A DNA stretch of 49,848 bases from a virus: positions 1 to 49,848 of the IMG/VR virus record IMGVR_UViG_3300020470_000017; one strand, written 5' to 3'. Position 1 is the first letter of the stretch; the number at the start of each line of letters is the position of its first letter. The position numbers and the translations under genes were made by a program. The notes below the pieces were generated by a model that ran no database searches, was not told where the DNA came from, and was given only the letters and a program-made list of their open reading frames with translations. This document shows positions 76 through 29,226 of the stretch, piece by piece.

Positions 76-274
76 ATACCGTTCCTTGTTCGAGGCCACG
101 CTGATAAGCGACTAGCCTCTTGTTTATCTCCTTGATTTCAATGGTTAGTTTTCTGATTTTGTTCTTATCCAACTGTTCGTCGGGAACGGGAGTACCATCT
201 TCTAATCTCATCATGCTGGCTCTCTGTTGCTTTAGTGCAACGAGCCTGGCATGGTCGCTTTCTGTCCAGCTCAT
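1..274 (-). CDS. Acidic-repeat protein, C-terminus outside the window
   Basis: The gene starts at the ATG of a motif copy at 272-281 and stays open to the left edge (at least 91 codons). The N-terminus (MSWTESDHARL) is followed by a charged, probably coiled-coil stretch rich in Lys and Glu, then by the EPAVE repeats. Function is not recognised. The stop codon of the upstream gene (277-279) lies inside its start motif. Confidence 0.8.
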   Translation of the reverse strand, partial: MSWTESDHARLVALKQQRASMMRLEDGTPVPDEQLDKNKIRKLTIEIKEINKRLVAYQRGLEQGTVSEEEPAVEEPAVEEPAVEEPAVEEP

Positions 275-281
275 GTTCAGT
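272..281 (-). promoter_or_regulatory. Start-associated 10-mer ACTGAACATG (representative of 44 exact copies)
   Basis: On the minus strand the decamer ends in the start codon. Exact copies lead the genes whose ATG begins at 274, 1920, 2660, 3143, 3758, 4289, 5185, 6316, 6770, 7015, 7926, 8379, 8960, 9401, 9671, 10317, 10557, 11453, 12042, 12229, 13233, 14273, 14833, 15042, 15317, 15686, 16277, 16571, 17095, 17813, 18705, 19264, 20369, 21297, 22917, 23396, 23615, 23878, 24852, 25112, 25591, 25843, 27258 and 29191. Each copy sits between the upstream stop codon and the ATG, or contains the stop (its TGA). It is not a Shine-Dalgarno sequence. Its role (initiator, processing or translation signal) is inferred only. 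Confidence 0.9.
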
Positions 282-1920
282 TTGAGGGAGGGGTTGCCGT
301 TTGAACATTCCCTCTCTCCTTTGCCTTGTTGGCTTTAACGATATCATCAATAATTCCTGTAATCTGCCTGCTGTAATCAACCGACATAGGAATATCTCCC
401 TCAGCCGTGCGTTCGTGAACGCCGGCCTCGCAATCGTATGCGTCTTTGCAGTGATAACGGATGTCAGTCCCTGACGGAGATTGTGAAACGATCTTCCCGC
501 TATTGTCAATGATAGGCAATGTTCCTGTCCATTCGCCTACACATGCGGGATTCGGTATTATCCATTGAAGTCGCTCTAGTTGCTGCCAGTGCTGCAGATA
601 GCCTCTGGATTTGGCTTTTGTATCATCAAACCAATCATTCATCTTTTTGTTCCAGATTTCATCTTTAGGTGCTGGTTCAATAGTGCCACCATTATACTTG
701 GCATCATTAGGAGGCAACCCGACTCCATCCACGCTTGGAAAGAATTGGGTGTACCACATATCATCCATATTGGCAAAATCATCGATGTCCAAATCGTAGT
801 AGATGCTTCCAGCGATAAAGTCCCATATTGCCTGTTCGTATCGTGATTCTTCCTTCATGTGCCAGTAACTCTCGCTGCTGCGCCCGCAGTATGTTCCAAT
901 TCCTGGGTGATTTCTTTCACCAGTGTCCCAAATGTATCTACTGGGTTCTAGATCTATCCATTCCTCATACGAATCTAAGTCGTGGCTAGCGAAATGGTTT
1001 TCCCATGCAGCCTGTATGCTTGTGAAGTATTTGCATATTCCTCTTGCATTTTGATAATTTGCAGCGTTTCCGTGCCTGGAGCGTGAGTAGCCCCTAGTCA
1101 TGTAGGGATTAGGAAGTCCGTCTTCCCCAGTCAGAAGCACATCCACGCCCAAAGAGCCCAGATATACTGTCTCGTCCCCACGCTCATCGTGCCTGTAGTT
1201 GCATTCCTCGCAATTATGCCAGATTTCTCTCTGGGTTTCCTCTGCGAGGTATGCTGGGCAACCTGGATCGGTTCTGTTTCTAATATCATCGTGCCAACTC
1301 TCCCTGTGCTTATCACACACGGGATAGTCTGCTTCATCGTAGTGCTCAAACCGTCTGGGTATGACCTCGCTTCTCTTGGGGTTCATGCCACATTCTAGTT
1401 GTGACACTATAACCAGTTTATTCCAAGTGTTGAAGTCCGTGTCCTGTTCTCCTCCCGTACAAGTCATCAAGTTGTGCTGGACATATTCATGCTCGTCCAA
1501 CAGTGATAATCGAAGGATTTCATCCTTTGATTTTGGTGGAGCCCAATCGTATGGGCTTTTCTCCATTCTCTTGAATATACAGTAATCATCGACACCACAT
1601 AACACCACGAAGTCAATGTCTAATGTTTCTTCGAGGTGGTCGAGTGTCGAGTGAAAGTCTTCTCTGTAGACATCCAACCGCTCCAGTGCGGGGGGTCCCG
1701 GCCAAACATTCGGTATCATTGTGTATCTAAGGGAGTTCTTTGACCTGCATATCGGCCCCCTCCCTATCAATGTCGAATGCTCATCGGACAATTTCCTGTT
1801 GCAGTCGATGCATCTTCCATGCACGCCGCCCACATCTCCGGATTTCTCACGGACAATGTTGGAAATATATTGAGTAAATCCCGTATAGTATGTTTCACTA
1901 CTTTTGTAAATATCAACCAT
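277..1920 (-). CDS. 547-aa protein with an N-terminal treble-clef-like zinc motif
   Basis: The product is large for this array. Residues about 37-58 carry C-x2-C, then a loop ending in G-R-G-P-I-C, the pattern of DUF6011-type small zinc domains. Two other proteins in the window share it (16901-17095 and 19395-20369). The rest is acidic and aromatic-rich with several more Cys pairs (CEECN; CHxR near residue 200) and no catalytic motif I can name. Start is set by the motif; the stop TGA overlaps the next gene's motif. Possibly a nucleic-acid-binding protein; function unknown. Confidence 0.8.
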   Translation of the reverse strand: MVDIYKSSETYYTGFTQYISNIVREKSGDVGGVHGRCIDCNRKLSDEHSTLIGRGPICRSKNSLRYTMIPNVWPGPPALERLDVYREDFHSTLDHLEETLDIDFVVLCGVDDYCIFKRMEKSPYDWAPPKSKDEILRLSLLDEHEYVQHNLMTCTGGEQDTDFNTWNKLVIVSQLECGMNPKRSEVIPRRFEHYDEADYPVCDKHRESWHDDIRNRTDPGCPAYLAEETQREIWHNCEECNYRHDERGDETVYLGSLGVDVLLTGEDGLPNPYMTRGYSRSRHGNAANYQNARGICKYFTSIQAAWENHFASHDLDSYEEWIDLEPSRYIWDTGERNHPGIGTYCGRSSESYWHMKEESRYEQAIWDFIAGSIYYDLDIDDFANMDDMWYTQFFPSVDGVGLPPNDAKYNGGTIEPAPKDEIWNKKMNDWFDDTKAKSRGYLQHWQQLERLQWIIPNPACVGEWTGTLPIIDNSGKIVSQSPSGTDIRYHCKDAYDCEAGVHERTAEGDIPMSVDYSRQITGIIDDIVKANKAKERGNVQTATPPSN

Positions 1921-1927
1921 GTTCAGT

Positions 1928-2356
1928 CTATAGATTGGATTTCACTTGCTCGAGAGTCTCCTCGTCGAGCAGTCCAGATCGTATCAATTCGTCTAGAATC
2001 CTCTTATCCTTGTTTCCCATGCTGGTGTTGTCGTTCGTTGGAACGACTGCTACATGCAACTGGAAGTTCTCGGAGTCATTGTATGAGTTCTCCATGAATG
2101 CCCCGCCCAGGGAGAATGCTAAACCATTCAGAAACTCGATAGGGTACATTTCCCTGCCAATCCGAATGATGAACTCCTTGTGCATCTCATTCTTGAGCCT
2201 TTCCAACTCTTCTTCCATCTTGTCGGCGAGGCTGTCTCCCCAGAGCAGTGAGTGTTCAGGTTTGATTCCAGGCACTATTTCCTCTGCGGGTGGGTTATCA
2301 GGCCCAATCCCCCAGTTAATACCGCCGTCTCCAATCCTCAAAGGCCAATAGCCCAT
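1928..2356 (-). CDS. Phage-type conserved small protein (unknown function)
   Basis: 142 aa. The N-terminus (MGYWPLRIGDGGINWG) and the central GDSLADKMEEELERL helix followed by EFLNGLAFSLGG resemble a small conserved protein seen in many phage genomes, but I cannot name the family. The start ATG overlaps the upstream stop (TGATG), so it is probably translated by coupling and has no copy of the 10-mer. A Lys/Glu-rich helical C-terminus follows. Confidence 0.75.
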   Translation of the reverse strand: MGYWPLRIGDGGINWGIGPDNPPAEEIVPGIKPEHSLLWGDSLADKMEEELERLKNEMHKEFIIRIGREMYPIEFLNGLAFSLGGAFMENSYNDSENFQLHVAVVPTNDNTSMGNKDKRILDELIRSGLLDEETLEQVKSNL

Positions 2357-2526
2357 CAGATCTCATCCTTCACTATCATCAAATCCTCTTGGGTGACATC
2401 AAGTTCTTCGCATATCAAATTAAGAGGGACTGTGACATAAAAGCCAAATTGTTCCTCATTGATTTCCAATCCATGCCCCCAAATCTGCTTCCAGTTCTTG
2501 GTGATCCAATTTGCTAATTTGCTCAT
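2356..2526 (-). CDS. 56-aa small protein
   Basis: Begins MSKLANWITKNWKQIWG, then an acidic half. The start ATG overlaps the upstream stop (ATGA), preceded by AGAGGTGAAAGA, a good archaeal Shine-Dalgarno site. This replaces the 10-mer here, so three genes (2660 to 1928) form a coupled unit led by one motif copy. Function unknown. Confidence 0.7.
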   Translation of the reverse strand: MSKLANWITKNWKQIWGHGLEINEEQFGFYVTVPLNLICEELDVTQEDLMIVKDEI

Positions 2527-2660
2527 TCTTTCACCTCTGTTTCCTTTATCCTAACATCTGCGCTCACGCAGGTGTATAGCTTCTCCTTCGCTTCTTCGTA
2601 AGTGTCGTAGGTGCCGACTACTCGCCACCCTCCGACAATTACATCGTATTGCTTAGCCAT
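2523..2660 (-). CDS. 45-aa small protein
   Basis: Motif-led. It reads as a compact beta-hairpin-like peptide with Gly-Gly-Trp and Tyr-Asp-Thr-Tyr followed by a charged helix (EEAKEKL). It overlaps the next start by 4 bp. No family recognised. Confidence 0.7.
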   Translation of the reverse strand: MAKQYDVIVGGWRVVGTYDTYEEAKEKLYTCVSADVRIKETEVKE

Positions 2661-2669
2661 GTTCAGTAG

Positions 2670-3143
2670 TTATCGCATTTCTGTGACTACACCCTCGAAA
2701 ATCGAGCCGCTTGGTTCCCAATCCACTCTTTGTGGGTTGTCTTCTGCTTGTGCGTCCTCATCAACCCAAATATGGCAGGTCAATGCGTTCCTTCCGTCAT
2801 AGGAAGCTCGCGCAAGTGCGTCATACGCCTCATGGCTTGCTTCCTCATCTTCTATTCCATTCGCATAGGCTCTGCTGAGAGCCCTGAATAGCAATACCTC
2901 GAGTTGAGATGGCTCATAGCCGAAGCATTCGGCCATCTCTGCTGCCACGATTTCATCTGTGGTTGATTCTTCATTGATATTCTCAAATGGGTCTTTCACT
3001 GTCTTCATGCTGACAGAATCCAGTGCCCTCCTCAAATCATTCCTGATTTCCATATCGATAGCTCTAGATTCCATATCCAATTCCAGCGTTTCCGTAATTA
3101 TGTTACTTGCCCAACTAGGCATAGTCCATATTTCTTCATCCAT
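2670..3143 (-). CDS. 157-aa acidic helical protein
   Basis: Begins MDEEIWTMPSWASNIITETLELD. It is mostly predicted helix and strongly acidic, with repeated Ala-Arg-Ala segments near residues 90-115. No catalytic or metal motif is visible. Motif-led start. Function unknown. Confidence 0.75.
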   Translation of the reverse strand: MDEEIWTMPSWASNIITETLELDMESRAIDMEIRNDLRRALDSVSMKTVKDPFENINEESTTDEIVAAEMAECFGYEPSQLEVLLFRALSRAYANGIEDEEASHEAYDALARASYDGRNALTCHIWVDEDAQAEDNPQRVDWEPSGSIFEGVVTEMR

Positions 3144-3150
3144 GTTCAGT

Positions 3151-3345
3151 CTAGGGCTTTACTGGGTAGTAGAATGCCATCTTCTCCCTGCAGTGTTTGC
3201 AGTAGCCAGCCCCATCAGCCATCACTTCTGCACGCCACCTTTGCTCCTTTTCCGGTTTGTTGTCCCAACAGGAACAACGGACATCTTCCTTGCTTAACAT
3301 TGCAGACCGAGGTGGTCTACTGTCGTTTGAGGCTTGTGTTTTCAT
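3151..3345 (-). CDS. 64-aa zinc-ribbon-like protein
   Basis: Two Cys pairs (C-S-C at about residues 24-26 and C-K-H-C at about 49-52) suggest one small zinc site in a basic protein. The start uses a variant motif, ACTGAGCATG (3343-3352), in which one base differs from the consensus. One of about 16 tiny Cys-pair proteins in the window. Confidence 0.7.
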   Translation of the reverse strand: MKTQASNDSRPPRSAMLSKEDVRCSCWDNKPEKEQRWRAEVMADGAGYCKHCREKMAFYYPVKP

Positions 3346-3347
3346 GC

Positions 3348-3758
3348 TCAGTGTTGTGGTGGTGCCCCTAATTGACCCATATTGGGCATTGCACCAGGCT
3401 GAGGTGCTTGAGACCATTGGTTCGATGAACCATCCCAAACCCAGAGTATTCCATCCCATTGGACATACCATTGACCGTTCATCTGGAACGGATCTGAGTT
3501 AGCCATCATCTGATTCGAGAATGGGATTGGAGCGTTGGGCAAAAGATTCACCTGTGCCGCCCCTGGTGTTTTCACAAGTTGTGGAATCATCATCCATGTT
3601 GTGATAACCCCATAACCAATCCAGAAGATGGGCATTTCAATTTGTTCTGGTAAGCGAAGTGCCGAAATATCGACTTCTGCTAGCCTTGTGTACCAATAGG
3701 CACCGGCTACAATCAACAAAATGACTCCAAATAGCCTTCGCATGGTAAGTACCTGCAT
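3348..3758 (-). CDS. Two-TM membrane protein with Trp-rich C-terminal repeat
   Basis: 136 aa. Membrane segments lie at about residues 8-24 (LFGVILLIVAGAYWY) and 45-62 (IFWIGYGVITTWMMI). The C-terminal part contains a Q-W-Y-V-x-W-D-G / W-V-W-D-G-x3-Q-W double motif like short WW-type surface repeats, then a Pro/Gly/Gln-rich tail. The stop codon is the TGA inside the next gene's variant motif. Probably an envelope or inner-membrane protein. Confidence 0.75.
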   Translation of the reverse strand: MQVLTMRRLFGVILLIVAGAYWYTRLAEVDISALRLPEQIEMPIFWIGYGVITTWMMIPQLVKTPGAAQVNLLPNAPIPFSNQMMANSDPFQMNGQWYVQWDGILWVWDGSSNQWSQAPQPGAMPNMGQLGAPPQH

Positions 3759-3789
3759 GTTCAGTGTGAAGGGTGCTTGCCGTTTAACC

Positions 3790-3969
3790 CTAGTCAAGAA
3801 TCTCGTAGTGCTCGTCCCAGGAATAGACATTCTCCAAATGTCTGGGGGCGAGCTTTGCCGTATTTCCTTGACAGGGTGTTGGCGGCCCTTTCCGGAGCCT
3901 CCTCAAAGCGGCTCCTTTTACATCGATTGTGTGTATAGTTCCACAAAACCTACATTTCACCTTAGTCAT
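3790..3969 (-). CDS. 59-aa zinc-knuckle protein
   Basis: C-R-F-C near the N-terminus (residues 6-9) followed by a basic segment (RRLRKG). Only one further Cys is present, so metal binding is uncertain. The start at 3969 overlaps the upstream stop; an alternative ATG lies at 3978. No 10-mer, so expression is probably coupled to the upstream winged-helix gene. Confidence 0.65.
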   Translation of the reverse strand: MTKVKCRFCGTIHTIDVKGAALRRLRKGPPTPCQGNTAKLAPRHLENVYSWDEHYEILD

Positions 3970-4240
3970 GGCTATCATCTGAATTGTTGTGTTGGTATGC
4001 TTCCTTCAATTCCCATTCGCAAACAGGATATTTTGGTTGTCCGGCCATGTTTCCAATCCTAACCATGTTGTCACATTTCCTAAATCGCTTGTCCTTCGCC
4101 AGGACATTGCCTATCTGATTCATCGTCGCACCCCACCTAGAAGAGTCATTCACATGCTCGTAAATCCTTCTGGTGTGGCATTTACCTTCCTTTTCGAGGA
4201 GCTTCACAATTTGCTCCCTTATCCGCGCCGTTCTACCCAT
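3962..4240 (-). CDS. Winged-helix DNA-binding protein
   Basis: 92 aa. MGRTARIREQIVKLLEKEG, then H-T-R-R-I-Y-E-H-V and a wing-like strand pair ending in a C-terminal helix fit a small wHTH regulator. The motif-proximal ATG (4289) instead opens an 18-codon frame, so this gene starts inside that mini-gene's end at 4240 (ATGGGTAG overlap). An in-frame alternative ATG lies 27 nt further upstream, at 4267. Confidence 0.75.
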   Translation of the reverse strand: MGRTARIREQIVKLLEKEGKCHTRRIYEHVNDSSRWGATMNQIGNVLAKDKRFRKCDNMVRIGNMAGQPKYPVCEWELKEAYQHNNSDDSHD

Positions 4241-4289
4241 GGAGTGTTCCCTCGCGGGGCTCACCATTTAGGCATTTCCGATTTTCCAT
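4233..4289 (-). CDS. 18-codon motif-led mini-gene (possible leader peptide)
   Basis: A perfect ACTGAACATG at 4287-4296 starts a frame of only 18 residues (MENRKCLNGEPREGTLHG). Its stop codon overlaps the ATG of the wHTH gene. It may be a leader for coupled translation, or a frameshift may have split one longer gene. No similarity recognised. Confidence 0.5.
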   Translation of the reverse strand: MENRKCLNGEPREGTLHG

Positions 4290-4298
4290 GTTCAGTCC

Positions 4299-4940
4299 TC
4301 AGAACAACAATTTGGACTTTCGCCCTCTCTCGTCGCAATGCTGCTTGATTCTGAGCAGTTTAGAAGCCCCACGCTCTATCCAAGCGTATGCCTTCTTGCC
4401 CAGAGACTCTCCGTGAGGGATTTCAAGGTCTTCCCACTTAGGCCACAGTCCTGGCTCACAGTCTTCGACTTGTGATTTCAGGAACTCTGGAATGGCGGTT
4501 TTGCCTTCCTCATCCATCTCCTTGAGTTTGTGAGCATTCATGTGCTCCCTGATGATGTATTCGATGATCGGATTAGTTCCGCCACTCTCGAGATACATCT
4601 CTGCAGACTTCTTGTCATGCCCGAATGCTGTTCCTTGCGGAGTCCCATCCGGCCATGTCTTCTTCGGGCTGTCCTTGTATGTGGCTAGTTTCCCCAAATC
4701 AGACCAAATGATGGCCTGTTCCAGAGTATATACAGCCTCCAATGACAAATCGTTGTAATCTGGGTGTAGCTTCAGTTCGTCGAGCATGAGTATAACATGC
4801 TCCCCTACTGCACCTTCTTCGTGGTGCTCGTTGTTCTGGTCGAGCAGAAGCTCTTTCTTGTATTCTGATAGCCAGGAGTTGCTCGACACCGTTCTCTTTT
4901 CGATGTCAGCAATCATTTCCTCTGCTGTTCTCATATCCAT
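4299..4940 (-). CDS. HD-superfamily phosphohydrolase-like protein
   Basis: 213 aa. A first histidine (G-E-H-V, about residue 49), a W-S-D-L-G-K segment (about 76-80) and G-H-D-K-K-S-A (about 105-112) line up with the HD fold of metal-dependent phosphohydrolases. The second motif normally reads HDxGK; here the His is Ser, so activity may be altered. A nucleotide or dNTP substrate would fit the takeover setting but is inference. The start uses the T-variant ACTTAACATG after a 38-bp gap. Confidence 0.65.
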   Translation of the reverse strand: MDMRTAEEMIADIEKRTVSSNSWLSEYKKELLLDQNNEHHEEGAVGEHVILMLDELKLHPDYNDLSLEAVYTLEQAIIWSDLGKLATYKDSPKKTWPDGTPQGTAFGHDKKSAEMYLESGGTNPIIEYIIREHMNAHKLKEMDEEGKTAIPEFLKSQVEDCEPGLWPKWEDLEIPHGESLGKKAYAWIERGASKLLRIKQHCDERGRKSKLLF

Positions 4941-4978
4941 GTTAAGTTCTCCACCCTATATGAAGTAACAATGTTCAG
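4938..4978 (-). promoter_or_regulatory. Intergenic gap with tandem start motifs (ACTGAACATT and ACTTAACATG)
   Basis: Reading leftward from 4978 the gap holds ACTGAACATTG, a decayed copy lacking ATG, then CATATAG (TATA-like), then ACTTAACATG leading the HD gene. It is one of the few places in the array with room for a promoter, and it carries the T-variant of the motif. Confidence 0.5.
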
Positions 4979-5185
4979 TCAAGGCTCCAAGCCCCATTCA
5001 AGGGTGCTCCAGCCTCTTTCATGCAAGTAATACAGAACCATCTTGGTGATTACCTCGATGCCTGCTATACTCAGCCCTATTGCTAGATCTCCCGTAAGAA
5101 GCCATGCGATTAGAATTGTATCTGTCGTGGCGATGAATCGCCAGGATAGCGTCTTAACAAGTGATCTCGTCTTGTTTGCATGCAT
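4979..5185 (-). CDS. DUF2061 family membrane protein
   Basis: 68 aa, the usual family length. Two membrane helices flank the conserved pattern: K-T-L-S-W-R-x-I-A-T-x-D-T near the N-terminus, T-G-D-x-A-I-G-L-S-I-A-G-I-E-V-I-T-K in the middle and L-Y-Y-L-H-E-R-G-W at the end. The family occurs in bacteria and archaea with unknown function. Motif-led start. Confidence 0.85.
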   Translation of the reverse strand: MHANKTRSLVKTLSWRFIATTDTILIAWLLTGDLAIGLSIAGIEVITKMVLYYLHERGWSTLEWGLEP

Positions 5186-5194
5186 GTTCAGTCG

Positions 5195-6316
5195 TCATAG
5201 TTCTCTCTTAAGAGCCCTAATGGTGTCACTTTCCGCATTGTAGCGGTCTATGTGCTGCTTGATTGTCTTCCTGACAGTGCCCTTCGCATGAGGCTGTGAG
5301 CCGTCATTGGGATAGCGTATCTGTATCAGGGTGGCCTGTCCGTGCTTGTTGTGTTCTGCACATTCAGGTTGTGAACAATATCCAGTAGCATAAGGTTGCC
5401 TGTGATGGCCTGCTCCGCACTTTCCCCCCTTGTTCAAGGGCATACCGTCTTCGTGCCATATCGCGTGTTTGTCTTGCGCGTAGAACAGTTCTTCGATTCT
5501 TAGAGCCTCTTCAAGCCCTTTCTTGTTGCCTTTCAACCACTCCCCAATCAGTCTGTCGATTTCCCACTCTTTCGAGAAGGGGCACCACATACAGGAACTC
5601 TTGTTGACAGGTGTTCCGTCTCCTCGAAAATCCCAACCCAAGTGGTCGAGAATCTCAAGGCACTCCTTCCTGTTCAATTTGAGATCCATCAGGGGGTAGT
5701 GATACTCATGTCCGAGAATCTTCTTTCCCTTTGTGTCTGATTTTCGTCGGTTGGCTGTGAATCGGTCTGAGCGACCCTCTTCCTCAAGCTCTATGCCGAG
5801 GTACCAGTGCTTCGTGCATACTTCGTGGTTGCCGAATCTCTCATCCGACCACTTCTGCATTACTTCGCCCTTGAATCTCATGCTGCAGACATGCCCCCTT
5901 CCCGGCATTAGCGGGAAGGCGCGACCATCTGTCAGCCATTCGTATATCGTGTAGGGCGTTTTACGCTTCTCGTATTGCGTCTGTTCCTCCTTAGGTAGGA
6001 GTCGCAATTCCTTTTGTCTGCCAAGCAGTTCACCTGTTTCCTTGTGGTAGTAGCGATTGTAATGGTGCCTGACTACGACAAGCTCAACGCCTGCCTCAGC
6101 ACACCTCTTCTTCGCATACTCAATGTTCTCATAAGTCTCCTCCCATTCGCTGCCAGGGTCGGCGAACACTGCCGCATCGACTACGGGGAATGCCTCATCG
6201 AGTTGCTCTCGAGTGATTCCCAGGTAGTCTGCAGCCTTGTCCCTTTCCAAGTGCATGGCAAGTAGCGCGGACGAATCCACGCCACCTCCGAATGCAAGTA
6301 TCTTCGGTCCATTCAT
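5195..6316 (-). CDS. PAPS reductase-like / adenine-nucleotide alpha-hydrolase protein
   Basis: 373 aa. The N-terminal PP-loop A-F-G-G-G-V-D-S-S-A (residues 8-17) is the ATP-pyrophosphatase signature of PAPS reductases, tRNA thiolases and DndC. Cys-rich segments follow (CMWCPF near residue 260, later Cys-His clusters), possible metal sites. Such enzymes are frequent in phages, often near methyltransferases, where sulfur transfer to nucleic acid is suspected. DndC-type phosphorothioation is possible, but no other dnd genes are visible. Confidence 0.75.
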   Translation of the reverse strand: MNGPKILAFGGGVDSSALLAMHLERDKAADYLGITREQLDEAFPVVDAAVFADPGSEWEETYENIEYAKKRCAEAGVELVVVRHHYNRYYHKETGELLGRQKELRLLPKEEQTQYEKRKTPYTIYEWLTDGRAFPLMPGRGHVCSMRFKGEVMQKWSDERFGNHEVCTKHWYLGIELEEEGRSDRFTANRRKSDTKGKKILGHEYHYPLMDLKLNRKECLEILDHLGWDFRGDGTPVNKSSCMWCPFSKEWEIDRLIGEWLKGNKKGLEEALRIEELFYAQDKHAIWHEDGMPLNKGGKCGAGHHRQPYATGYCSQPECAEHNKHGQATLIQIRYPNDGSQPHAKGTVRKTIKQHIDRYNAESDTIRALKREL

Positions 6317-6356
6317 GTTCAGTGCCTCCCATAGGGAGTCTTTGATAATAGATCGG

Positions 6357-6770
6357 TCATTCGTCGGCAATCGCTAAATCTAGCCATTCTTCAAAACATT
6401 CCTTATCGTATTCGTGTGCTATATCGCCAGAGCCTATTTCCACCCTCACGGGGTAGTCCTCTCGACCCAAAATAGGGACTGATGCTTCCTTTTCCTCGAA
6501 AATAACCAACTCAAACCATCGAGTATAGTAGGTGTCCCAGCCATCCTCGTTATTCATTATCCTATGGAGGGCTTCATCATCCTTGATTCCCCTCTCCTCT
6601 AGCCATTGTATTCTCCCAGAGGCAGATGAGTCTCGGTCTTTCCATCGATCACCGTTCGGTGCAGTCGTTACAAAGTCTCCAGTTGCCCAAATCTCATAGG
6701 AGTATTCGTTGTTCCTCTTACTCGCCACAGGTCCAGTATCAAACCAAACCGCGTCTTTCCGATTATCCAT
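6357..6770 (-). CDS. 137-aa acidic, Trp-rich protein
   Basis: Begins MDNRKDAVWFDTGPVASKRNN. It is rich in Trp, Asp and Glu and contains no Cys pair or recognisable active site. Motif-led. A 40-bp gap separates it from the PAPS-like gene. Function unknown. Confidence 0.7.
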   Translation of the reverse strand: MDNRKDAVWFDTGPVASKRNNEYSYEIWATGDFVTTAPNGDRWKDRDSSASGRIQWLEERGIKDDEALHRIMNNEDGWDTYYTRWFELVIFEEKEASVPILGREDYPVRVEIGSGDIAHEYDKECFEEWLDLAIADE

Positions 6771-6778
6771 GTTCAGTG

Positions 6779-7015
6779 TTACTCTATTTCTTGTAGAGTG
6801 ATTTCGACCCAATGCTTACGGTCTTCGACATTCTCGACATCATCCAATATCATAATGTTCTCAATCTCTTGTCCTTCGAGGTTATGATTCTCAAGATGAT
6901 ACCAAACTATTGGTGTCTCATCGCTCAATCCTTTTTCCTTTAGTTGCTCCATGCTTTCAATTACTTCCCCTATGGTGTTTAATGTCCATGGGGGGTTTCT
7001 CTTGTCATCGTCCAT
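6779..7015 (-). CDS. 78-aa acidic protein
   Basis: Begins MDDDKRNPPWTLNTIGEVIESMEQ. The order of an N-terminal helix, then P-I-V-W-Y-H-L and acidic strands, suggests a small alpha/beta domain of a phage accessory type. No family named. Motif-led. Confidence 0.65.
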   Translation of the reverse strand: MDDDKRNPPWTLNTIGEVIESMEQLKEKGLSDETPIVWYHLENHNLEGQEIENIMILDDVENVEDRKHWVEITLQEIE

Positions 7016-7023
7016 GTTCAGTG

Positions 7024-7926: not shown

Positions 7927-7935
7927 GTTCAGTGC

Positions 7936-8379: not shown

Positions 8380-8387
8380 GTTCAGTG

Positions 8388-21297: not shown

Positions 21298-21305
21298 GTT
21301 CAGTA

Positions 21306-21806: not shown

Positions 21807-21819
21807 AATGTTCAGTGGC

Positions 21820-22917
21820 TCAGAATAGGAGATGCATTCGCTTTCTCCAATCGTTGTCTACTTCTGCCATCTTGAGCGCCGACACAAGTGTTCGGAGGTC
21901 AAGTTGCGTCTTGTCCAGTTTAGCCGTCCCTGCAGCCTCATTGACCTCACGCTGTACTTCGTAGTAATCTATCAGAGAGGTCAAGACTTCTTCCTTGAGT
22001 CTTAGATCCATCTCTGGTTTGACTTTCCTGAGCATTGTCTTCATTCGTTCGAGTTTTTCCTCCTCAGTCAGGAAGAGGGGCACATTCATTGCTCTGCTGA
22101 GCAACGCCCCTTCATCGTCGAACTCCTTTTCTGTGAGATTGGTTATGATAATCAGCCTTCCATCGAATCGGTATTGGCTTGGCAGTTTCTTCGCCTCGCC
22201 CTTTTCGTACCTCAAGATGGAGTCCTCACCTTCACCCGCGCTGGCTACCTGTTCGTAGCCACCTGATTTGACACTCCAATTCACGATCCTCTCAGGAGAG
22301 GAGTCGGTCATACATTTGAGTATCTCACGCATTTGCTTCTTGGAATCCCTGCTTCCGCCGCTGAAATCCACATCGTCAAGCACAAGGATTCCGCCTTTGC
22401 GAAACCTAATGCCTGTCTCGAATAGTGCTGGGGCAGTGCATTTGCTGGTTAGCCAGGCGTAGTCCTTGCCTGTAACCAAGTCATACTTCTCCAGCACCTC
22501 TTTGACTAGATGCGATTTTCCAACGCCTGCTGTCCCATAGATGACTGTGAAGGGATGTATTCCCCTAACTACATCATCAACGGTTCTGTGGAAGACTTCG
22601 AATCTCTCCTCGACGGACATCTCAAGTCCTTGCACAGTTCTAAGCCCGAAAGCCTTGTCACCGTGTATTTCTTTGGCCTTAGCCAAAGCGGCCTTTCTGA
22701 TTTCCGCCTTCGATTGAAGCTCAGTCTTGAGCATCTCTTTCTTGACTCGTGCTTCCTTCCTGGTTTCCTTCGACTTTTCCTGTCTCCTTTTGCTTGCGCC
22801 TTTCCATTCGGGATTGGTTTCTGCAACATCTTCCTCTGAATCGGCCTTTTCCCAGACCTCCTCGTAAGTGCTGCTCAATCTCTTCTTCTTCTTTCCAAAT
22901 ATGTTGAAAATTGACAT
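21820..22917 (-). CDS. AAA+ ATPase
   Basis: 365 aa. A long basic, coiled-coil N-terminal extension (about residues 1-95) precedes Walker A G-T-A-G-V-G-K-S (about 128-135) and Walker B I-L-V-L-D-D-V-D-F (about 176-184), with an arginine-finger candidate near S-R-A-M-N. The layout is that of phage DNA-handling ATPases such as helicase loaders or packaging-like motors. No partner gene is identified. Confidence 0.82.
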   Translation of the reverse strand: MSIFNIFGKKKKRLSSTYEEVWEKADSEEDVAETNPEWKGASKRRQEKSKETRKEARVKKEMLKTELQSKAEIRKAALAKAKEIHGDKAFGLRTVQGLEMSVEERFEVFHRTVDDVVRGIHPFTVIYGTAGVGKSHLVKEVLEKYDLVTGKDYAWLTSKCTAPALFETGIRFRKGGILVLDDVDFSGGSRDSKKQMREILKCMTDSSPERIVNWSVKSGGYEQVASAGEGEDSILRYEKGEAKKLPSQYRFDGRLIIITNLTEKEFDDEGALLSRAMNVPLFLTEEEKLERMKTMLRKVKPEMDLRLKEEVLTSLIDYYEVQREVNEAAGTAKLDKTQLDLRTLVSALKMAEVDNDWRKRMHLLF

Positions 22918-22919
22918 GT

Positions 22920-23396
22920 TCAGTATCTGCATCTTCTCAATGGGTGTCCATCTGGTAGAGGGCCCCAGCCTGTCCTCAAGTGGAAGTCCAAATCACCCAT
23001 CATTTCGTTGATTTCTTCATCTGTCGTATAAGATGGAAGGAGTTCTATGACTTCTTTTTCATCCAATTGAATCAGGATGCATTCCTCCTTTGAATCGTAG
23101 CATTCGTTGTCGATTCCCCATTGGATAAACTCTTCCTCCGACATACTGCCCTTCTCATCCCAATACTCCCCAAAGGTGTCCAGGACGGCAATGTGGCCGT
23201 CGAATAGAGGTCCTTCGTACTCGAAGTATTTCTTGTTGGTGACTCCGACAATCGTGCCTTGTCCCTCGAAGATTACTCGATTGATTGCTATAGCGGCTGC
23301 GCCACAATATCCTGAGTGTCCCTCAAGTTGGGCGCTTTCAATTGCCTTTTCCCAAGTTGAGTAAAGCTCCTGGCGACCCGTACTTTGCATTAACAT
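22920..23396 (-). CDS. 158-aa acidic protein
   Basis: Begins MLMQSTGRQELYSTWEKAIES. A central Gly/Cys/Ala stretch (H-S-G-Y-C-G-A-A-A-I-A) and an acidic C-terminal half are visible. The stop is the TGA of the ATPase gene's motif. Nothing recognised. Confidence 0.7.
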   Translation of the reverse strand: MLMQSTGRQELYSTWEKAIESAQLEGHSGYCGAAAIAINRVIFEGQGTIVGVTNKKYFEYEGPLFDGHIAVLDTFGEYWDEKGSMSEEEFIQWGIDNECYDSKEECILIQLDEKEVIELLPSYTTDEEINEMMGDLDFHLRTGWGPLPDGHPLRRCRY

Positions 23397-23405
23397 GTTC
23401 AGTAA

Positions 23406-23615
23406 TTATTCCAGAAACTCGACACCGATGTCGATTTTCTGACCTGCGAATCTTCCCACCAAAGGGGATATTTCTGCTTCCCTTGTGCCGCATCTTAGGA
23501 TTCGGCATCTTGTTCCTTTGCTCAACAGCCCCAGAGTTCTCGTCAGGGTGACTATTGAATCCTGTTCGTAAGGAGCGTTCTCGACGCTTCTTTTACGGAT
23601 CTTCAATCCTACCAT
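23406..23615 (-). CDS. 69-aa small protein
   Basis: Begins MVGLKIRKRSVENAPYEQDS. Strand-rich and basic, with two Cys (C-R-I-L-R-C). Possibly a small beta-barrel nucleic-acid-binding protein. Motif-led. Confidence 0.6.
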   Translation of the reverse strand: MVGLKIRKRSVENAPYEQDSIVTLTRTLGLLSKGTRCRILRCGTREAEISPLVGRFAGQKIDIGVEFLE

Positions 23616-23623
23616 GTTCAGTG

Positions 23624-23878
23624 TTATTGTTTGGTTTTGATATACATTATCATCATGTTGTCGTTTTCGAATGGCTCGAAAAGCCATTTATCCTCTATGA
23701 GATAGTCCATCAATTCAATTACATTGTAATCTCCAGGTTTTATGTTCCAATCCTTATCTTCCAACAATCCTGTTTCTTTGTATTCCTCAATAAGACTCTC
23801 CTTAGTATGGATTTGGGTTATTTCTGTCCCGTTCCAAGAGCATAAGAAGTAGTCATCATTGGCTAAATCTAAATCCAT
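23624..23878 (-). CDS. 84-aa small protein
   Basis: Begins MDLDLANDDYFLCSWNGTEI. Acidic alpha/beta. The frame also stays open to an ATG at 23956 that overlaps the upstream stop, but the 10-mer favours 23878. The gap upstream (23879-23937) holds a Cys-rich stretch in another frame. Confidence 0.6.
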   Translation of the reverse strand: MDLDLANDDYFLCSWNGTEITQIHTKESLIEEYKETGLLEDKDWNIKPGDYNVIELMDYLIEDKWLFEPFENDNMMIMYIKTKQ

Positions 23879-23937
23879 GTTCAGTGCAGATGCATTCTCC
23901 GCATCTTTTGCATACCGGACAACAAGTGTCAGGCAAG

Positions 23938-24270
23938 TCATTCCCCCTCTATACAAGGAGGGCTGGCGAAGGTTGTGCCGCAGAACTTCGATATTATTTC
24001 GTCAAGCATGGCTTGATGCGACCCTTTCCTAGGAGCACCTACCACCCACGACAGATGGTCGATGATGGCATGCATCTCTGCTATGTCCACCTCGTCATCG
24101 TAATCTTCGTTATCTGGTGTTTCTTCACCAGGATATTCCGCATCCTTAGTCACCCACTCGTAGAAGTCCTCATCGTACTCCGCTATCGCGGAGATGATTA
24201 CTCTGCCTAGGTTCAGCCTCTTGGTGCGAGTATCGCACACACCTTTCCAATCAATTCTATTACTACTCAT
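23938..24270 (-). CDS. 110-aa protein of unknown function
   Basis: Begins MSSNRIDWKGVCDTRTKRLN. A central acidic stretch is followed by I-I-D-H-L-S-W-V-V-G-A-P-R-K-G. No 10-mer at the start; the ATG overlaps the upstream gene's end, so translation is probably coupled. Confidence 0.65.
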   Translation of the reverse strand: MSSNRIDWKGVCDTRTKRLNLGRVIISAIAEYDEDFYEWVTKDAEYPGEETPDNEDYDDEVDIAEMHAIIDHLSWVVGAPRKGSHQAMLDEIISKFCGTTFASPPCIEGE

Positions 24271-24415
24271 TCTTGTCCACCATCCACTTTGGGTAAGGAG
24301 GATCTGCTCGTGGTAGTCTCGCTATGTTGTAGGCACACCAAAGTAGCATGCACTCATATCCGTGTCTAATTCTGTCTGCTAGCGTAGGCTTGCAGTGCAG
24401 TTCTATTCTGTCCAT
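24263..24415 (-). CDS. 50-aa small protein
   Basis: Begins MDRIELHCKPTLADRIRHGYE. Two Cys and a helix rich in Tyr, Leu and Ala. Its upstream gap (24416-24484) holds a GCCGCC/GGCGGC hairpin and a CACCTGGGGGG element instead of the 10-mer. Confidence 0.6.
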   Translation of the reverse strand: MDRIELHCKPTLADRIRHGYECMLLWCAYNIARLPRADPPYPKWMVDKNE

Positions 24416-24484
24416 GATGAGTTCGGGTTGGCATAAAGATTGGCCGCCCCCCAGGTGTTATCCTAGAAGGCGGCGTTTGTTTCC

Positions 24485-24754
24485 TTATCCTATGAGGTCG
24501 AGCCAATAATCTAGGCTCGCCTCTCCGTGGTATTCTTCGGACCAATCTTCTATGAAGTCCGAGTGAAAGGAACTGCTCTCATCCCACGGGCATGTTCGGT
24601 CTTGCGACCAAAGCTCCACTTGTTGGTTTGCGATTCTTCGTCCCTTTCTCCTTATCCTGTCATTTCCTTGTGAGATCATCTTTGTGACCTTCTCATAGTA
24701 TCGCGTAGTAGTATTCACGCACAAAGGTGCGATTGGAACTATTCGATTAGACAT
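24485..24754 (-). CDS. 89-aa small protein
   Basis: Begins MSNRIVPIAPLCVNTTTRYYE. A basic middle (R-I-R-R-K-G-R-R) and an acidic, aromatic C-terminus. The start uses the T-variant ACTTAACATG with a TTATAA box about 30 bp upstream, so it may be the first gene of a transcript. Confidence 0.65.
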   Translation of the reverse strand: MSNRIVPIAPLCVNTTTRYYEKVTKMISQGNDRIRRKGRRIANQQVELWSQDRTCPWDESSSFHSDFIEDWSEEYHGEASLDYWLDLIG

Positions 24755-24798
24755 GTTAAGTGGGGTTCGGAGAGGTGGTTATAAGAAAGGAGTCACCT
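24753..24798 (-). promoter_or_regulatory. Candidate promoter with TTATAA box and ACTTAACATG
   Basis: Reading leftward: GAGGTGACTCC, TTATAA, a C-rich spacer, then ACTTAACATG. It is one of the few real intergenic gaps in the array and again carries the T-variant. Confidence 0.5.
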
Positions 24799-24852
24799 CT
24801 ATGCCGGACCACCTCTCCAGGTTTCCCCAAACCTTTGTACAACAACCGGCAT
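24799..24852 (-). CDS. 17-codon motif-led mini-gene
   Basis: A perfect 10-mer opens MPVVVQRFGETWRGGPA and then a stop. Like the frame at 4233-4289 it shows the motif leading very short frames, possibly leaders or decayed gene heads. Confidence 0.45.
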   Translation of the reverse strand: MPVVVQRFGETWRGGPA

Positions 24853-24860
24853 GTTCAGTG

Positions 24861-25112
24861 CTACTGAGTAATCCCAGCGTTCCTGTAAGAATCTTGGAAC
24901 TTGTGATAGAAGTCGTGCCTTGCCAGACATCCGCCGATGAAAACTCTTGGGCCGATGAAGTGTGCTTCGCACACTGGGCAATAGGTCTCGTCTATCCAAT
25001 CCGTGATTGTTCCTTCTTCGGTGTGTATGATTACCTTCACACCGAGAAGATCAGTCGTGTATGCCTCAATGGGTTCTCCCGTTTCAGCATTCACTACATT
25101 CTTCAAACTCAT
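24861..25112 (-). CDS. 83-aa zinc-knuckle protein
   Basis: Begins MSLKNVVNAETGEPIEAYTT. C-P-V-C-E-A-H-F (about residues 45-52) and a later C-L-A-R-H could form one zinc site. Motif-led. Confidence 0.65.
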   Translation of the reverse strand: MSLKNVVNAETGEPIEAYTTDLLGVKVIIHTEEGTITDWIDETYCPVCEAHFIGPRVFIGGCLARHDFYHKFQDSYRNAGITQ

Positions 25113-25120
25113 GTTCAGTG

Positions 25121-25591
25121 TTAGTTGAATCCCGCTTGTGAAGTTTTCGTCAATCCCGAGAAAGGCCCTATTCTCCTCGCTAGGAGTTCCTGGCGAAGCG
25201 TGCCTATCTTGGTCGGGTGCTTGTAGGGAGCAGTTCCTTTTGCTTGCAGTTCGTACTCCCCTGTATCTTCGTTGTAAACGGCGCAGAAATGCTCGAGACC
25301 TTCGTTCTCAATCGCATCTCTTGCACCGTTGTTTGCTCCCTTTACTCCACATTGGTAAAGAATAACGATGCCATCTTCCAACAATTCGGGTTCCTCTCTG
25401 AATATCTTCCAGAGTCTTTTCCCCGTCTCTTGATAGTAAGAATCATCATTTTCCCAATCCAACTTTTCCTTAGAGGCCGGATTTGAGAACTTTGTCGCTT
25501 CTGGATATATCCAGTGCGTCACATGTCCTTTTCCATCCGTCCTTTTCCACTCATGGTGTCCTCTTGCGAGGATTCCTAAATGTAGTGTCAT
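25121..25591 (-). CDS. 156-aa protein of unknown function
   Basis: Begins MTLHLGILARGHHEWKRTDGK. A mixed alpha/beta protein with a Gly-rich centre (C-G-V-K-G-A-N-N-G-A-R). No family recognised. Motif-led. Confidence 0.68.
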   Translation of the reverse strand: MTLHLGILARGHHEWKRTDGKGHVTHWIYPEATKFSNPASKEKLDWENDDSYYQETGKRLWKIFREEPELLEDGIVILYQCGVKGANNGARDAIENEGLEHFCAVYNEDTGEYELQAKGTAPYKHPTKIGTLRQELLARRIGPFSGLTKTSQAGFN

Positions 25592-25600
25592 GTTCAGTGT

Positions 25601-25843
25601 TCATTCATCGAAGGGTGCAACGAACTCGTTGTATATGCACTCAAATAATTCGCGTCCTTTCGGCGTATATCCGGTAACATCGTAATCGTTTTCCCCTTCA
25701 CATTCTTCGTGGTATCTATCCGCGTCTTCCAAAAATCGACTGTCATAGATGTCAGTCCTCTCGATTAGACCTAGGTCTACCATCTTGTCCATAATAGCGT
25801 CGCCTGCATCGCAGGCATTTGCTATTGCTGTTTCGTCTGCCAT
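25601..25843 (-). CDS. 80-aa acidic protein
   Basis: Begins MADETAIANACDAGDAIMDKM; acidic, with a helix-turn-helix-like arrangement and a C-terminal G-Y-T-P-K-G-R-E-L-F segment reminiscent of small wHTH proteins. The 95-bp gap upstream carries GATATACG and CACCTGGGGGG. Confidence 0.62.
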   Translation of the reverse strand: MADETAIANACDAGDAIMDKMVDLGLIERTDIYDSRFLEDADRYHEECEGENDYDVTGYTPKGRELFECIYNEFVAPFDE

Positions 25844-25938
25844 GTTCAGTTGGGTCACTAGGGGAAGTCATTGGCGCTGTGCCTCACCCCCCAGGTGACT
25901 TGCGTATATCTGATTGTTTGATGAAGATAGTAGATCGC

Positions 25939-27258
25939 TTAGACCTTCATTGCTCGACGCTCATGCTCAGAGGGAAATCTTCTCTTCCTCTGTACCATGT
26001 GTGCTGTCTCCTCGAGTTTCTTCCCTTCTGCCTCCACTCTAGCGGCGGCATCGCGTAGGGCCTGTGAAGCGGTCAATGCGTCCTCAGCCAATTTCATCTG
26101 TCTCTCCTTGTGTTCTGGAGTTCCGACGATGTAGCTTAGTGCCAAACGAACTTCGCCGTCAGAGTCATGTGCCCTGTTCATCTCGAAGTCTTTCTTCCTC
26201 AAAAGAGGAGTAGACACAAGTGCCGTCCGTGTTCCACACTTAGAGGTCAATTGCCTATAGCCTATCATTACCTGGTGCTTTTCGCCCCAGGCCTCGGCTT
26301 CGATTGGTACGGGCAAAGGCTCGCTCATATCGGGAGCCTTTGGAATCCTCGTAGTCGTTGGCTTCTTCTTCTTCTTCTTAGTCAAGTGATTGTTGTGCGT
26401 CTTGCTCAAGGCTTTCAGTTCCTCAACTGTGAGGTCCTTGTCGCTGTTCTTGATAGCGTTGCACATGTTGCACACCCTCTTGCCTTGCTGCTGCCAATTC
26501 CTGAATCTCAGGTGGCACGCGCCCCTTGTCAGGACTGCTTGCTTGTGAGCCTCCAGTGTCTCGGTTGCTTGGCGGTTCCAGCGGATGGTCCTCTCCCTCA
26601 AGAACTTCAACCGATTCTCGGCTGCTACCCTCTCCTTCTCGGCTGCTATTCTCTCCATCTCAATCCTACCAATCAATTCGACTGAGTAGTATCTAATTGC
26701 TTCCATGGAGAAGTTGCAGTTCCATTCCTGTTCGGGTTCTGGTTCCGGTTCTGGTTCGGGTTCCACTTTCACATGTGGGTGTATGAACTTGACATTCATC
26801 GTGTGAGTTCGCTTGTGTCGCAAGTCCGGGGTTCCGTCGGCCTTTAGTGGCCTTGCGTCGGCATCCCAGATTATCCTTGCTTTTGCTAACCTGGCTGTGA
26901 CGGCGTTTGCTAAGCCGTAAATATCATTCAATTCAATCCTAGGATGAGGGGTTGCCCTCTTCCTGAATGCTCGGATTACACATCGAACCTTCGATTTGAG
27001 TTGCTCCGCTGATGGGAGTTCCTTCTCAATCTTGGCTGCTTGTGCATCTTTGTCCTTTTCTCTGAGTGATATTGCCTGATCAACTTTGTCGAGCATACCC
27101 AGTAGGTATGCATTACAAGCGTTCTTAATCTGATTACTGAGTATCAACCTTTTCTCTGCGATAGAGCCCGGTTTAATTTCCCGGGTTTTCTTCCCTACTA
27201 AGGGAAGGTCGGCGATCATCTGTATCATCATCAAAATTGCATTTCTAAAATCGTGCAT
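25939..27258 (-). CDS. 439-aa coiled-coil protein with Glu-Pro repeat
   Basis: A helical N-terminal domain, an E-P-E-P repeat (about residues 167-177), a long coiled coil (R-I-E-M-E-R-I-A-A-E-K-E-R-V), a C-N-M-C pair near 270, a poly-Lys patch and an Arg-rich C-terminus. It looks like a DNA-associated structural or replication-accessory protein. The motif ATG is at 27258; the frame is open to 27351, so a longer form starting just after the upstream stop is possible. Confidence 0.72.
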   Translation of the reverse strand: MHDFRNAILMMIQMIADLPLVGKKTREIKPGSIAEKRLILSNQIKNACNAYLLGMLDKVDQAISLREKDKDAQAAKIEKELPSAEQLKSKVRCVIRAFRKRATPHPRIELNDIYGLANAVTARLAKARIIWDADARPLKADGTPDLRHKRTHTMNVKFIHPHVKVEPEPEPEPEPEQEWNCNFSMEAIRYYSVELIGRIEMERIAAEKERVAAENRLKFLRERTIRWNRQATETLEAHKQAVLTRGACHLRFRNWQQQGKRVCNMCNAIKNSDKDLTVEELKALSKTHNNHLTKKKKKKPTTTRIPKAPDMSEPLPVPIEAEAWGEKHQVMIGYRQLTSKCGTRTALVSTPLLRKKDFEMNRAHDSDGEVRLALSYIVGTPEHKERQMKLAEDALTASQALRDAAARVEAEGKKLEETAHMVQRKRRFPSEHERRAMKV

Positions 27259-27355
27259 GTTCAGTAACAGGTTGGCGTGAGTCATTGGCCCCCATGCCTC
27301 GTCAGCGCCTTCCTGTTCAATGGGGATTACGGTCCCCTTCCTATATTGCATCCAA

Positions 27356-29191
27356 TCACTGTGAACGATGTCTCTGGTGGCCGAACTTCTCTCTGTTCGA
27401 GATAGCCTCTGCCGTTAGATCCTCAACATACATTCCAATGCATGGCTCACCTGCGAAGGTAGTCATCTCCAGTTGTAGGCAACCGTGGTTGTGTCCGTAC
27501 TTACCAGCGAAGTTGAGCTTACCATTCCCCTTCGTCTTGCGACTCTTTGAGTTGGTCTTTGCCCATGCTGGCAGGTTAGTATCGTCCGTCACACCAGATG
27601 ATGTACCGCGTACTCCGTACACCCATGCCCATGGCTTGGATAGGGAGTGTTCCCGTAGTGTCTGCAGGTTCTCGATGAAGGATGTCTCGTCCGCTGAGAG
27701 CGTTCTGCCCTGCTTTTGGAACTGTAGCATCCTGACTATGTTCGGCATAATGCCCGAACCAGCCTCGACCTGCCTCTCCTCAGAGGCAATCATGTTCATC
27801 ATTGATGCAGAATCACCCTGCATTGCGCATAGATCGACCCAGACTTTGATAATCTCCAGTTTCTTTAGGTCTCTAACATTGTCAGGAGTCAGGGTGACTA
27901 GGGCTGATGGGCCTCTCGGCCTCCTTCCCTTCTTGCCGCCCTTGAACCATTCTCGCTCAAGCTTCTTGGCTTTTCTCCTTTCAGTGCTTCGCGCAACATC
28001 TGTTGGGCTCTCCGGTATGAATGCCTTCCACTCTACTTTGTGGTCGAAGGGGCTTTGTCCAACAATGCCAGCAATCTGCTTTCTGCAATAGTTGAAGTCA
28101 AGTTCCTCGAGCAGCATTATTGCGGCGGTTCCCTTGTTGCGGGGTAGTCCGTGCTTCGAGTAAGGAACAAACTTTGTCTCCTTCCCCTTGAATCCGTTCA
28201 CCTGCCTGGCTACCGTATCGAACGGTGTTGCCAAAGGCAAGAGATTGAATCCGGAAAGGACCCATGCCCTAAACTCGCAAACATCTGCGAACCATCTGTG
28301 TGTGTTTTTCTGATAGTAACCGAAAGTTTGGTTCAAGAACGCCTGGGCTGGAGGGTTAGCGGTGAGGTATTTCCTCTCCTCTCCCCTTGGAACTCTCTTG
28401 GTGTTCCACTCCAGCTTGAACATCCCCGATGGGGGGAGTCTAGCGTCATCAACCGACTTCGGTGCCACTGTGAAGTCATACAGGATGAAACTGTCGAATG
28501 TGAGACCTTCGGTGATAGCCCCGATGGTGAATCCCTCGGGTGCTCTTTCTTGGATCTCATCCACTAGGCGGTCTACGAGTTGAGCCGTGAACAGCCCGTC
28601 GTCGTTTCGCGTCTTCCCAGTGTCTTCGTCAATCATGTTGTCTGCCATGCGGTTCAAAATACCTGGATCGCCGGAAATATCGATTCCAGCGAATGCTGCA
28701 GCCATTGACATCCCCGCTGTTGTAGTGCCTTCCTTCTTCGCATCCGTTGCGTGAACAACTGCGTGCGAGAAGCTAACACTGCGGATTATCTTTCCTGTGT
28801 CATCAGCATAGTCTGGTTCTGCTCGGGCAATAGCCTCCATAACTGGACCAATCGCCTTCGACCACACTTTACTGTGTCCGATGGTGATTTTTGCATTTAC
28901 TCCGTAGAGGTTTGCTGTCCCTGGTTCTCTATGTGCTCCGAAGTTTACGAAATGCTGTACGCAATCCGCGAACCCTTTGCTGCTTCTGTTCTTCGTTTCT
29001 TCAGTGTGCCATGACATTAGTGCTGTGTCGATGTTGGATCTAAGCTGTCCCTTAGTGCCCGTTAGGGGCAAAGGTTCCGCTAGTACACCTGAGTCGTTCA
29101 AGACTCGGATGTCTGCCTTCATCTCTTTCACTGTCATGTCTGTCTCCTTTAGGGCACCTCCTTCGAGGTACCTCTCTGCAATGTGTTGCAT
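27356..29191 (-). CDS. 611-aa protein with SAP-like N-terminus, unknown function
   Basis: The longest product of the left array. Residues about 20-58 (T-V-K-E-M-K-A-D-I-R ... T-G-T-K-G-Q-L-R) resemble a SAP DNA-binding motif. A basic patch (K-K-G-R-R-P-R-G) lies near 455. No polymerase, helicase or nuclease motif is evident. Its place next to the non-coding hub and the strand switch makes an origin-binding or initiator role attractive but unproven. Motif-led. Confidence 0.7.
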   Translation of the reverse strand: MQHIAERYLEGGALKETDMTVKEMKADIRVLNDSGVLAEPLPLTGTKGQLRSNIDTALMSWHTEETKNRSSKGFADCVQHFVNFGAHREPGTANLYGVNAKITIGHSKVWSKAIGPVMEAIARAEPDYADDTGKIIRSVSFSHAVVHATDAKKEGTTTAGMSMAAAFAGIDISGDPGILNRMADNMIDEDTGKTRNDDGLFTAQLVDRLVDEIQERAPEGFTIGAITEGLTFDSFILYDFTVAPKSVDDARLPPSGMFKLEWNTKRVPRGEERKYLTANPPAQAFLNQTFGYYQKNTHRWFADVCEFRAWVLSGFNLLPLATPFDTVARQVNGFKGKETKFVPYSKHGLPRNKGTAAIMLLEELDFNYCRKQIAGIVGQSPFDHKVEWKAFIPESPTDVARSTERRKAKKLEREWFKGGKKGRRPRGPSALVTLTPDNVRDLKKLEIIKVWVDLCAMQGDSASMMNMIASEERQVEAGSGIMPNIVRMLQFQKQGRTLSADETSFIENLQTLREHSLSKPWAWVYGVRGTSSGVTDDTNLPAWAKTNSKSRKTKGNGKLNFAGKYGHNHGCLQLEMTTFAGEPCIGMYVEDLTAEAISNREKFGHQRHRSQ

Positions 29192-29226
29192 GTTCAGTTG
29201 GACTTTAGTCGTCCGAGACTGTTGTA

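Follow-up and report, generated by a model that had tools for sequence, protein, structure and literature searches.

Gene after gene in the leftward array of IMG/VR virus record IMGVR_UViG_3300020470_000017 begins directly behind the same heptamer, ACTGAAC, which raises the question of what such a word does and what reads it. The stretch analyzed here (the window) is the whole 49,848-base record and, judged from its gene content, belongs to an archaeal mobile element (virus or plasmid). The heptamer may be an RNA boundary (processing) signal that yields leaderless messenger RNAs (mRNAs) and excised small RNAs and is read by an element-specific factor. We give this reading about an even chance.

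Placement and concerted change of the word

The decamer ACTGAACATG occurs in 44 exact copies spanning positions 272-29198, all 44 of them on the minus strand and none on the plus strand (dinucleotide shuffles give 0.23), and the spacing between ACTGAAC and ATG is zero in every one. The original prediction, made from the letters of the window, had given this count and spacing and had reported no copies on the rightward genes, and both observations are borne out. ACTGAAC without ATG is found six times in the window, which is about the chance level. A minor variant, ACTTAACATG, has four copies (Table 1), three before genes and one after the gene for transfer RNA (tRNA)-Lys. The frames started by ACTGAAC or ACTTAAC number 47 and take up 85% of the array. 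About eight gaps, each of 204-606 nucleotides, hold array frames without the motif, so the phrase "almost every gene" used at first was slightly strong.

In most cases in the window, the stop codon of the upstream gene lies inside the word or ends 0-4 nucleotides before it. Most array genes have no Shine-Dalgarno sequence, whereas many genes outside the arrays of the same elements have one and also use GTG or TTG starts. The early remark that the word does not match the anti-Shine-Dalgarno sequence is right, and pairing with the 3' end of 16S ribosomal RNA was rejected as incompatible with the heptamer.

A motif search over related elements, suggested as a check when the word was first noticed, yields five relatives that each carry their own word across an array. 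Relatives were sought with a pattern scan for two nearby word copies and with protein searches that used a GTPase and a radical-SAM-like array protein. The pattern scan gave G002 (60.9 kb), which has 69 ACTGAAC copies on a single strand. The protein searches gave G011 (128.8 kb), G013 (127.6 kb), G022 (36.7 kb) and G023 (23.1 kb), plus more distant contigs, so that together with the window there are six independent motif-bearing elements. Short terminal repeats in G011 and G013 fit sequences that are complete and circular; absences in G022 and G023 mean little, as both are fragments. Directly before ATG, G011 carries ACTGACC (61 copies), G022 also carries ACTGACC (57 motif-started frames of at least 20 codons), G013 carries ACCGCTC with ACCACTC (98 copies) and G023 carries NYCGCTC (44 frames). 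No such word is present in the distant contigs that share the GTPase (G014 and G016-G021). Otherwise, scans of IMG/VR for paired copies of ACTGAAC or ACTGACC gave only contigs with two to four copies; the count covers the whole record for ACTGAAC and the fetched stretch only for ACTGACC. Where the word precedes a gene start, that start is ATG alone (44 in the window, 69 in G002, 61 in G011 and 98 in G013), and neither GTG nor TTG starts stand out. AUG is the preferred codon for leaderless initiation in Escherichia coli and some other bacteria (PMC9031893).

At 21 ortholog gene starts shared by the window and G011, the window has ACTGAAC where G011 has ACTGACC, and the same replacement is seen at 18 starts shared with G022; two more G022 orthologs bear the variant ACTTACC. 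At nearly all orthologs compared, then, the word goes with the element and not with the gene. The variant class also stays in place: ACTTAAC at 24754 of the window corresponds to ACTAACC in G011, and ACTTAAC at 29388 corresponds to ACTTACC in G022. In a tree of three concatenated array proteins, the window and G022 are sisters, G011 lies outside them and G002 falls on the side of G013 and G023 (support of 82 for the key branch). The array proteins of the window are 73% identical to those of G022 and 45% identical to those of G002. The history of the word so departs from the simplest tree pattern, and the word has changed at all copies at least once. Fixation of copies one by one, each for its own function, would not give a concerted change of this kind; a trans-acting reader would. 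The change across orthologs implies that the word would be read by a trans-acting, element-specific factor.

Gene order within the arrays is strongly shuffled, with only 8 of 20 neighbor pairs kept between the window and G022 and 5 of 20 between the window and G011, and genes without orthologs in the other elements still bear the word of their own element. Both observations fit a scheme in which the word is a DNA junction for exchange of gene cassettes within arrays and has only a secondary role in expression. Such a recombination boundary leaves unexplained why the word abuts ATG, why ATG alone is used, why copies keep to a single strand and why the word changes everywhere at once, and we consider it very improbable.

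Hairpin RNAs and a possible processing signal

Positions 29892-30420 of G002 (loci L021 and L022) hold tandem hairpin units of two types and, at the end of the series, a tRNA-Arg, connected by the linker ACTTAACAACTGAAC. Folding leaves the linker single-stranded, with a stem that begins at the base after ACTGAAC and ends at the base before ACTTAACA. Downstream of this tandem array there is a hairpin with a T8 terminator-like sequence. Elsewhere, the copy at 45350 of G002 is followed by a 14-base-pair stem from +1, and the copy at 11385 of G013, at the far end of its array, by an 8-base-pair stem from +1. Over the six elements, 9 of 33 non-ATG copies have a stem of at least 7 base pairs from +1, compared with 1.8% of 4,800 random positions (P ~6e-9); when the five tandem G002 units are left out, the fraction is 4 of 28 (P = 0.0016). 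In both the window and G002, moreover, ACTTAAC is found next to tRNA 3' ends. Because non-ATG copies begin stems at +1, the signal does not seem to need an open reading frame (ORF). An RNA processing signal is expected at the boundaries of coding and non-coding units alike, which is where the G002 hairpins and these 9 of 33 non-ATG copies place the word.

Frames of 17 and 18 codons had been listed among the genes started by the word, and both exist (at 24852 and 4289). The 17-codon frame coincides with a 52-nucleotide stem-loop whose 7-base-pair stem has the A of ATG as its first base; a small RNA, and not a gene, may therefore lie here. The 18-codon frame (4233-4289, minus strand) overruns, by a few bases, the probable start of the small winged-helix-like gene downstream of it (3962-4267). 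This arrangement suggests a leader peptide coupled to that gene.

If the heptamer is a processing signal, transcription of the array from its regulatory region would give a single long RNA, or at most a few, on which an element-specific trans-acting factor (a protein, or a protein plus an RNA) would recognize the heptamer of its own element. The RNA would then be cut immediately 3' of the heptamer. Before a gene, the freed 5' end would be AUG, giving a leaderless mRNA that could be read without a Shine-Dalgarno sequence; before a hairpin, it would be the first base of the hairpin RNA. Ordinary Shine-Dalgarno initiation serves many genes outside the array, so that the heptamer would set apart a regulon of its own. 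We infer RNA as the substrate, its cleavage, the leaderless mRNAs and the nature of the reader from DNA sequence. Initiator, RNA processing site and dedicated translation signal had been offered side by side at first. Processing is now favored because the G002 hairpins follow the heptamer at zero spacing and because no TATA-like signal lies upstream of the copies; the other two options are weakened.

A transcription initiator would make every copy the start of a leaderless transcript, with positions -7 to -1 read by the TFB and Rpb5-like subunit of the element. Proteins resembling both are encoded by the element, the C at -1 and A or G at +1 fit an archaeal initiator, and the hairpin RNAs likewise start at +1. 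However, no column resembling TATA or the TFB recognition element (BRE) is present between -24 and -35 from the start in the window (<0.2 bit per column) or in G002 (flat base counts), and such a signal before each copy was rejected for both. TATA-like repeats stand elsewhere, upstream of the whole array and not of single copies. Between 44 and 100 promoters would be needed, many of them inside the stop codons of upstream genes, and the window and G002 share the same word even though their TFBs are only ~24% identical. We regard an initiator as unlikely.

A dedicated translation-initiation signal is somewhat more plausible but still doubtful. An initiation factor encoded by the element, or a modified ribosome, would bind the heptamer on the mRNA in place of a Shine-Dalgarno sequence and (re)initiate 2-11 nucleotides after the upstream stop. 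The zero spacing to ATG, strict in all elements, is compatible with this idea, as are the scarcity of Shine-Dalgarno sequences among array genes relative to other genes and the position of the upstream stop codon, which in most gene pairs falls within the word or directly ahead of it (TGA-AC-ATG in 46 of 68 in G002). It leaves unexplained why the same word stands before hairpin RNAs and tRNA-linked units, which lack an ORF. Many copies are also far from any stop codon, and no initiation factor occurs in the families scanned.

Several observations weigh against a processing signal as well. The clear hairpin evidence comes mostly from one relative, G002, and no nuclease or other reader was identified among the proteins scanned. 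A C with A or G behind it would suit an archaeal transcription initiator equally well, and homologs of TFB and Rpb5 are encoded by the elements. Where genes overlap, as in G002, a cut after the word would end the upstream mRNA two nucleotides past its stop codon. Within array genes, the heptamers of the same element number 8 against 5.3 expected, which gives no measurable avoidance in a test without power; 6 of these 8 come late in their frame, close to its 3' end, and most of these coincide with the start of an overlapping downstream gene.

The protein family at 2670-3143 is a candidate reader on the basis of its distribution. It is present in 6 of 6 motif-bearing elements and undetected in the motif-less relatives, and its AlphaFold model is poor (mean pLDDT, the predicted local distance difference test, of 52.6). 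Four other array proteins match this distribution wholly or partly and were set aside for their DNA-modification or replication look: a radical-SAM-like protein (13245-14273), a PP-loop protein (5195-6316), a methyltransferase (10566-11453) and an AAA+ protein (21820-22917). An antisense guide RNA was also rejected, since a search outside genes for full seven-nucleotide complements of each word gave none in the intergenic region of the window and none consistent among the relatives.

The fuller picture is a private post-transcriptional code, in which long polycistronic RNA is cut by an element-specific reader at an element-specific heptamer into leaderless mRNAs and small hairpin RNAs, dozens in all, and in which co-evolution of the reader with its 40-100 sites lets the word switch at every one of them. 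We hold this tentatively, at a little under even chances. If the heptamer is a processing signal, separation of mRNAs by a sequence-specific cut that leaves a 5' AUG would be a promoter-independent route to leaderless mRNAs, and what reads the word would be a new factor that binds or cuts RNA at a specific sequence. A word that is particular to each element and switches in concert would offer a natural experiment in the co-evolution of a reader with dozens of sites, and such words may insulate the transcripts of one element from those of another. Even under the rival explanations, a second initiation system would exist beside Shine-Dalgarno initiation in the same genomes.

The element and its other features

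The archaeal assignment is made because the window encodes TFB and Rpb5 and G011 encodes a group II chaperonin. The window protein with an Rpb5/RpoH C-terminal domain (38830-39126) has homologs in G011, G002, G016 and G020. The best natural match of the G011 chaperonin is the Thermoplasma thermosome, which hints only weakly at the host lineage. Searches of INPHARED phages and PLSDB plasmids gave no match to named hosts or relatives. Other window proteins include a serine recombinase, glycosyltransferases, several DNA methyltransferases and a GTPase-like protein with a weak Arf match; there is one tRNA-Lys, and no capsid, portal or terminase genes were recognized among the window proteins scanned. 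A contig from a metagenome-assembled genome labeled Flavobacteriales (PAND01000026, locus L028) encodes an archaeal TFB and carries no word; it is probably a misbinned archaeal element.

Tandem CCGATGGC repeats, mostly with a TATRTA-like sequence after them, occur on the array strand upstream of the arrays in the window (31413-31934), G011 (115577-116151) and G002 (24552-25094). They are candidate promoters or operators of the arrays. On the minus strand at 29386-29760, a repeat of ~190 nucleotides occurs about twice; ACTTAACAT[GA] closes each copy, and one copy contains a poly-T stretch. The repeat is possibly a structured RNA outside Rfam. A long hairpin of TGATT(T)GATT repeats (30550-30650, minus strand) comes directly after tRNA-Lys and ACTTAACAT.

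Table 1. Copies of the word and other features located in the window
Feature	Positions	Strand	Basis
Leftward gene array with heptamer	1..29198	-	
ACTGAAC-ATG	272..281; 1918..1927; 2658..2667; 3141..3150; 3756..3765	-	exact match
ACTGAAC-ATG, 18-codon frame	4287..4296	-	exact match
ACTGAAC-ATG	5183..5192; 6314..6323; 6768..6777; 7013..7022; 7924..7933; 8377..8386; 8958..8967	-	exact match
ACTGAAC-ATG	9399..9408; 9669..9678; 10315..10324; 10555..10564; 11451..11460; 12040..12049; 12227..12236	-	exact match
ACTGAAC-ATG	13231..13240; 14271..14280; 14831..14840; 15040..15049; 15315..15324; 15684..15693	-	exact match
ACTGAAC-ATG	16275..16284; 16569..16578; 17093..17102; 17811..17820; 18703..18712; 19262..19271	-	exact match
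ACTGAAC-ATG	20367..20376; 21295..21304; 22915..22924; 23394..23403; 23613..23622; 23876..23885	-	exact match
ACTGAAC-ATG, 17-codon frame	24850..24859	-	exact match
ACTGAAC-ATG	25110..25119; 25589..25598; 25841..25850; 27256..27265	-	exact match
ACTGAAC-ATG, first large gene of array (611 amino acids)	29189..29198	-	exact match
Variant ACTTAAC-ATG, gene of 213 amino acids	4938..4947	-	
Variant ACTTAAC-ATG; G011 ortholog has variant word ACTAACC	24752..24761	-	
Variant ACTTAAC-ATG, gene of 53 amino acids; G022 ortholog has ACTTACC	29386..29395	-	
Variant ACTTAAC at tRNA-Lys 3' end, then hairpin	30647..30656	-	
ACTGAAC then ATT-ATG, gene start	21807..21816	-	
ACTGAAC-ATT, gap upstream of 4940 gene	4970..4979	-	
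Stem-loop, 7-base-pair stem from +1 after heptamer; overlaps 17-codon frame	24801..24852	-	
Regulatory/non-coding region upstream of array; ~190-nucleotide repeat, ACT[TC]AACAT copies	29199..31940	-	
Six CCGATGGC repeats, candidate array promoters; 5' ends 31420, 31499, 31578, 31641, 31789, 31934	31413..31934	-	
tRNA-Lys(CTT)	30656..30732	-	
Divergent TFB (archaeal TFIIB)-like protein	31897..32886	+	
Rpb5/RpoH-like RNA polymerase subunit	38830..39126	+	Pfam hit; gene assigned by inspection and homologs

Comparison with known systems

In a limited literature search, no account of archaeal elements with element-specific start words came up, and the closest known systems each share part of the pattern. 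The transcription-regulating sequences of nidoviruses are short cores before each gene of an array that set mRNA 5' ends. Nidoviruses are unrelated RNA viruses that use discontinuous RNA synthesis, so the likeness is one of analogy only. Archaeal leaderless genes have AUG at or near the 5' end and are translated without a Shine-Dalgarno sequence, as proposed for the array genes. Their promoter normally lies ~26 nucleotides upstream, whereas such a promoter signal is absent here.

Sequence-specific cleavage of RNA next to AUG, as proposed for MazF, would also yield leaderless mRNAs. MazF reads ACA anywhere in RNA; here a heptamer is placed at the starts of units, and no MazF family is present among the proteins scanned. 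The generation of leaderless mRNAs by MazF in E. coli is itself disputed (PMC9031893).

The nearest published kind is the start-associated sequence (SAS) of cluster K mycobacteriophages, a short asymmetric sequence just upstream of many non-structural gene starts and nearly all on one strand, with associated inverted repeats (extended start-associated sequences, ESAS) whose consensus differs by subcluster (PMC3203893, PMC12699233). The SAS is a 13-mer, GGGATAGGAGCCC, with 125 copies in eight phage genomes at up to two mismatches and a Shine-Dalgarno-like core (PMC12699233), and phage Mordin has a similar 26-bp repeat (PMC4611695). The comparison, already drawn in the original prediction, is apt as an analogy: both signals lie directly upstream of start codons mainly in one orientation, which in the window means 44 of 44 copies on the minus strand at zero spacing. 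The Shine-Dalgarno-like core of GGGATAGGAGCCC (PMC3203893) marks a different signal, and its consensus is not matched by ACTGAAC, ACTGACC or ACCGCTC. Here an exact heptamer without such a core stands at zero spacing 44-100 times per element, in elements that are archaeal, with a word that is set by the element and that also precedes hairpin RNAs.

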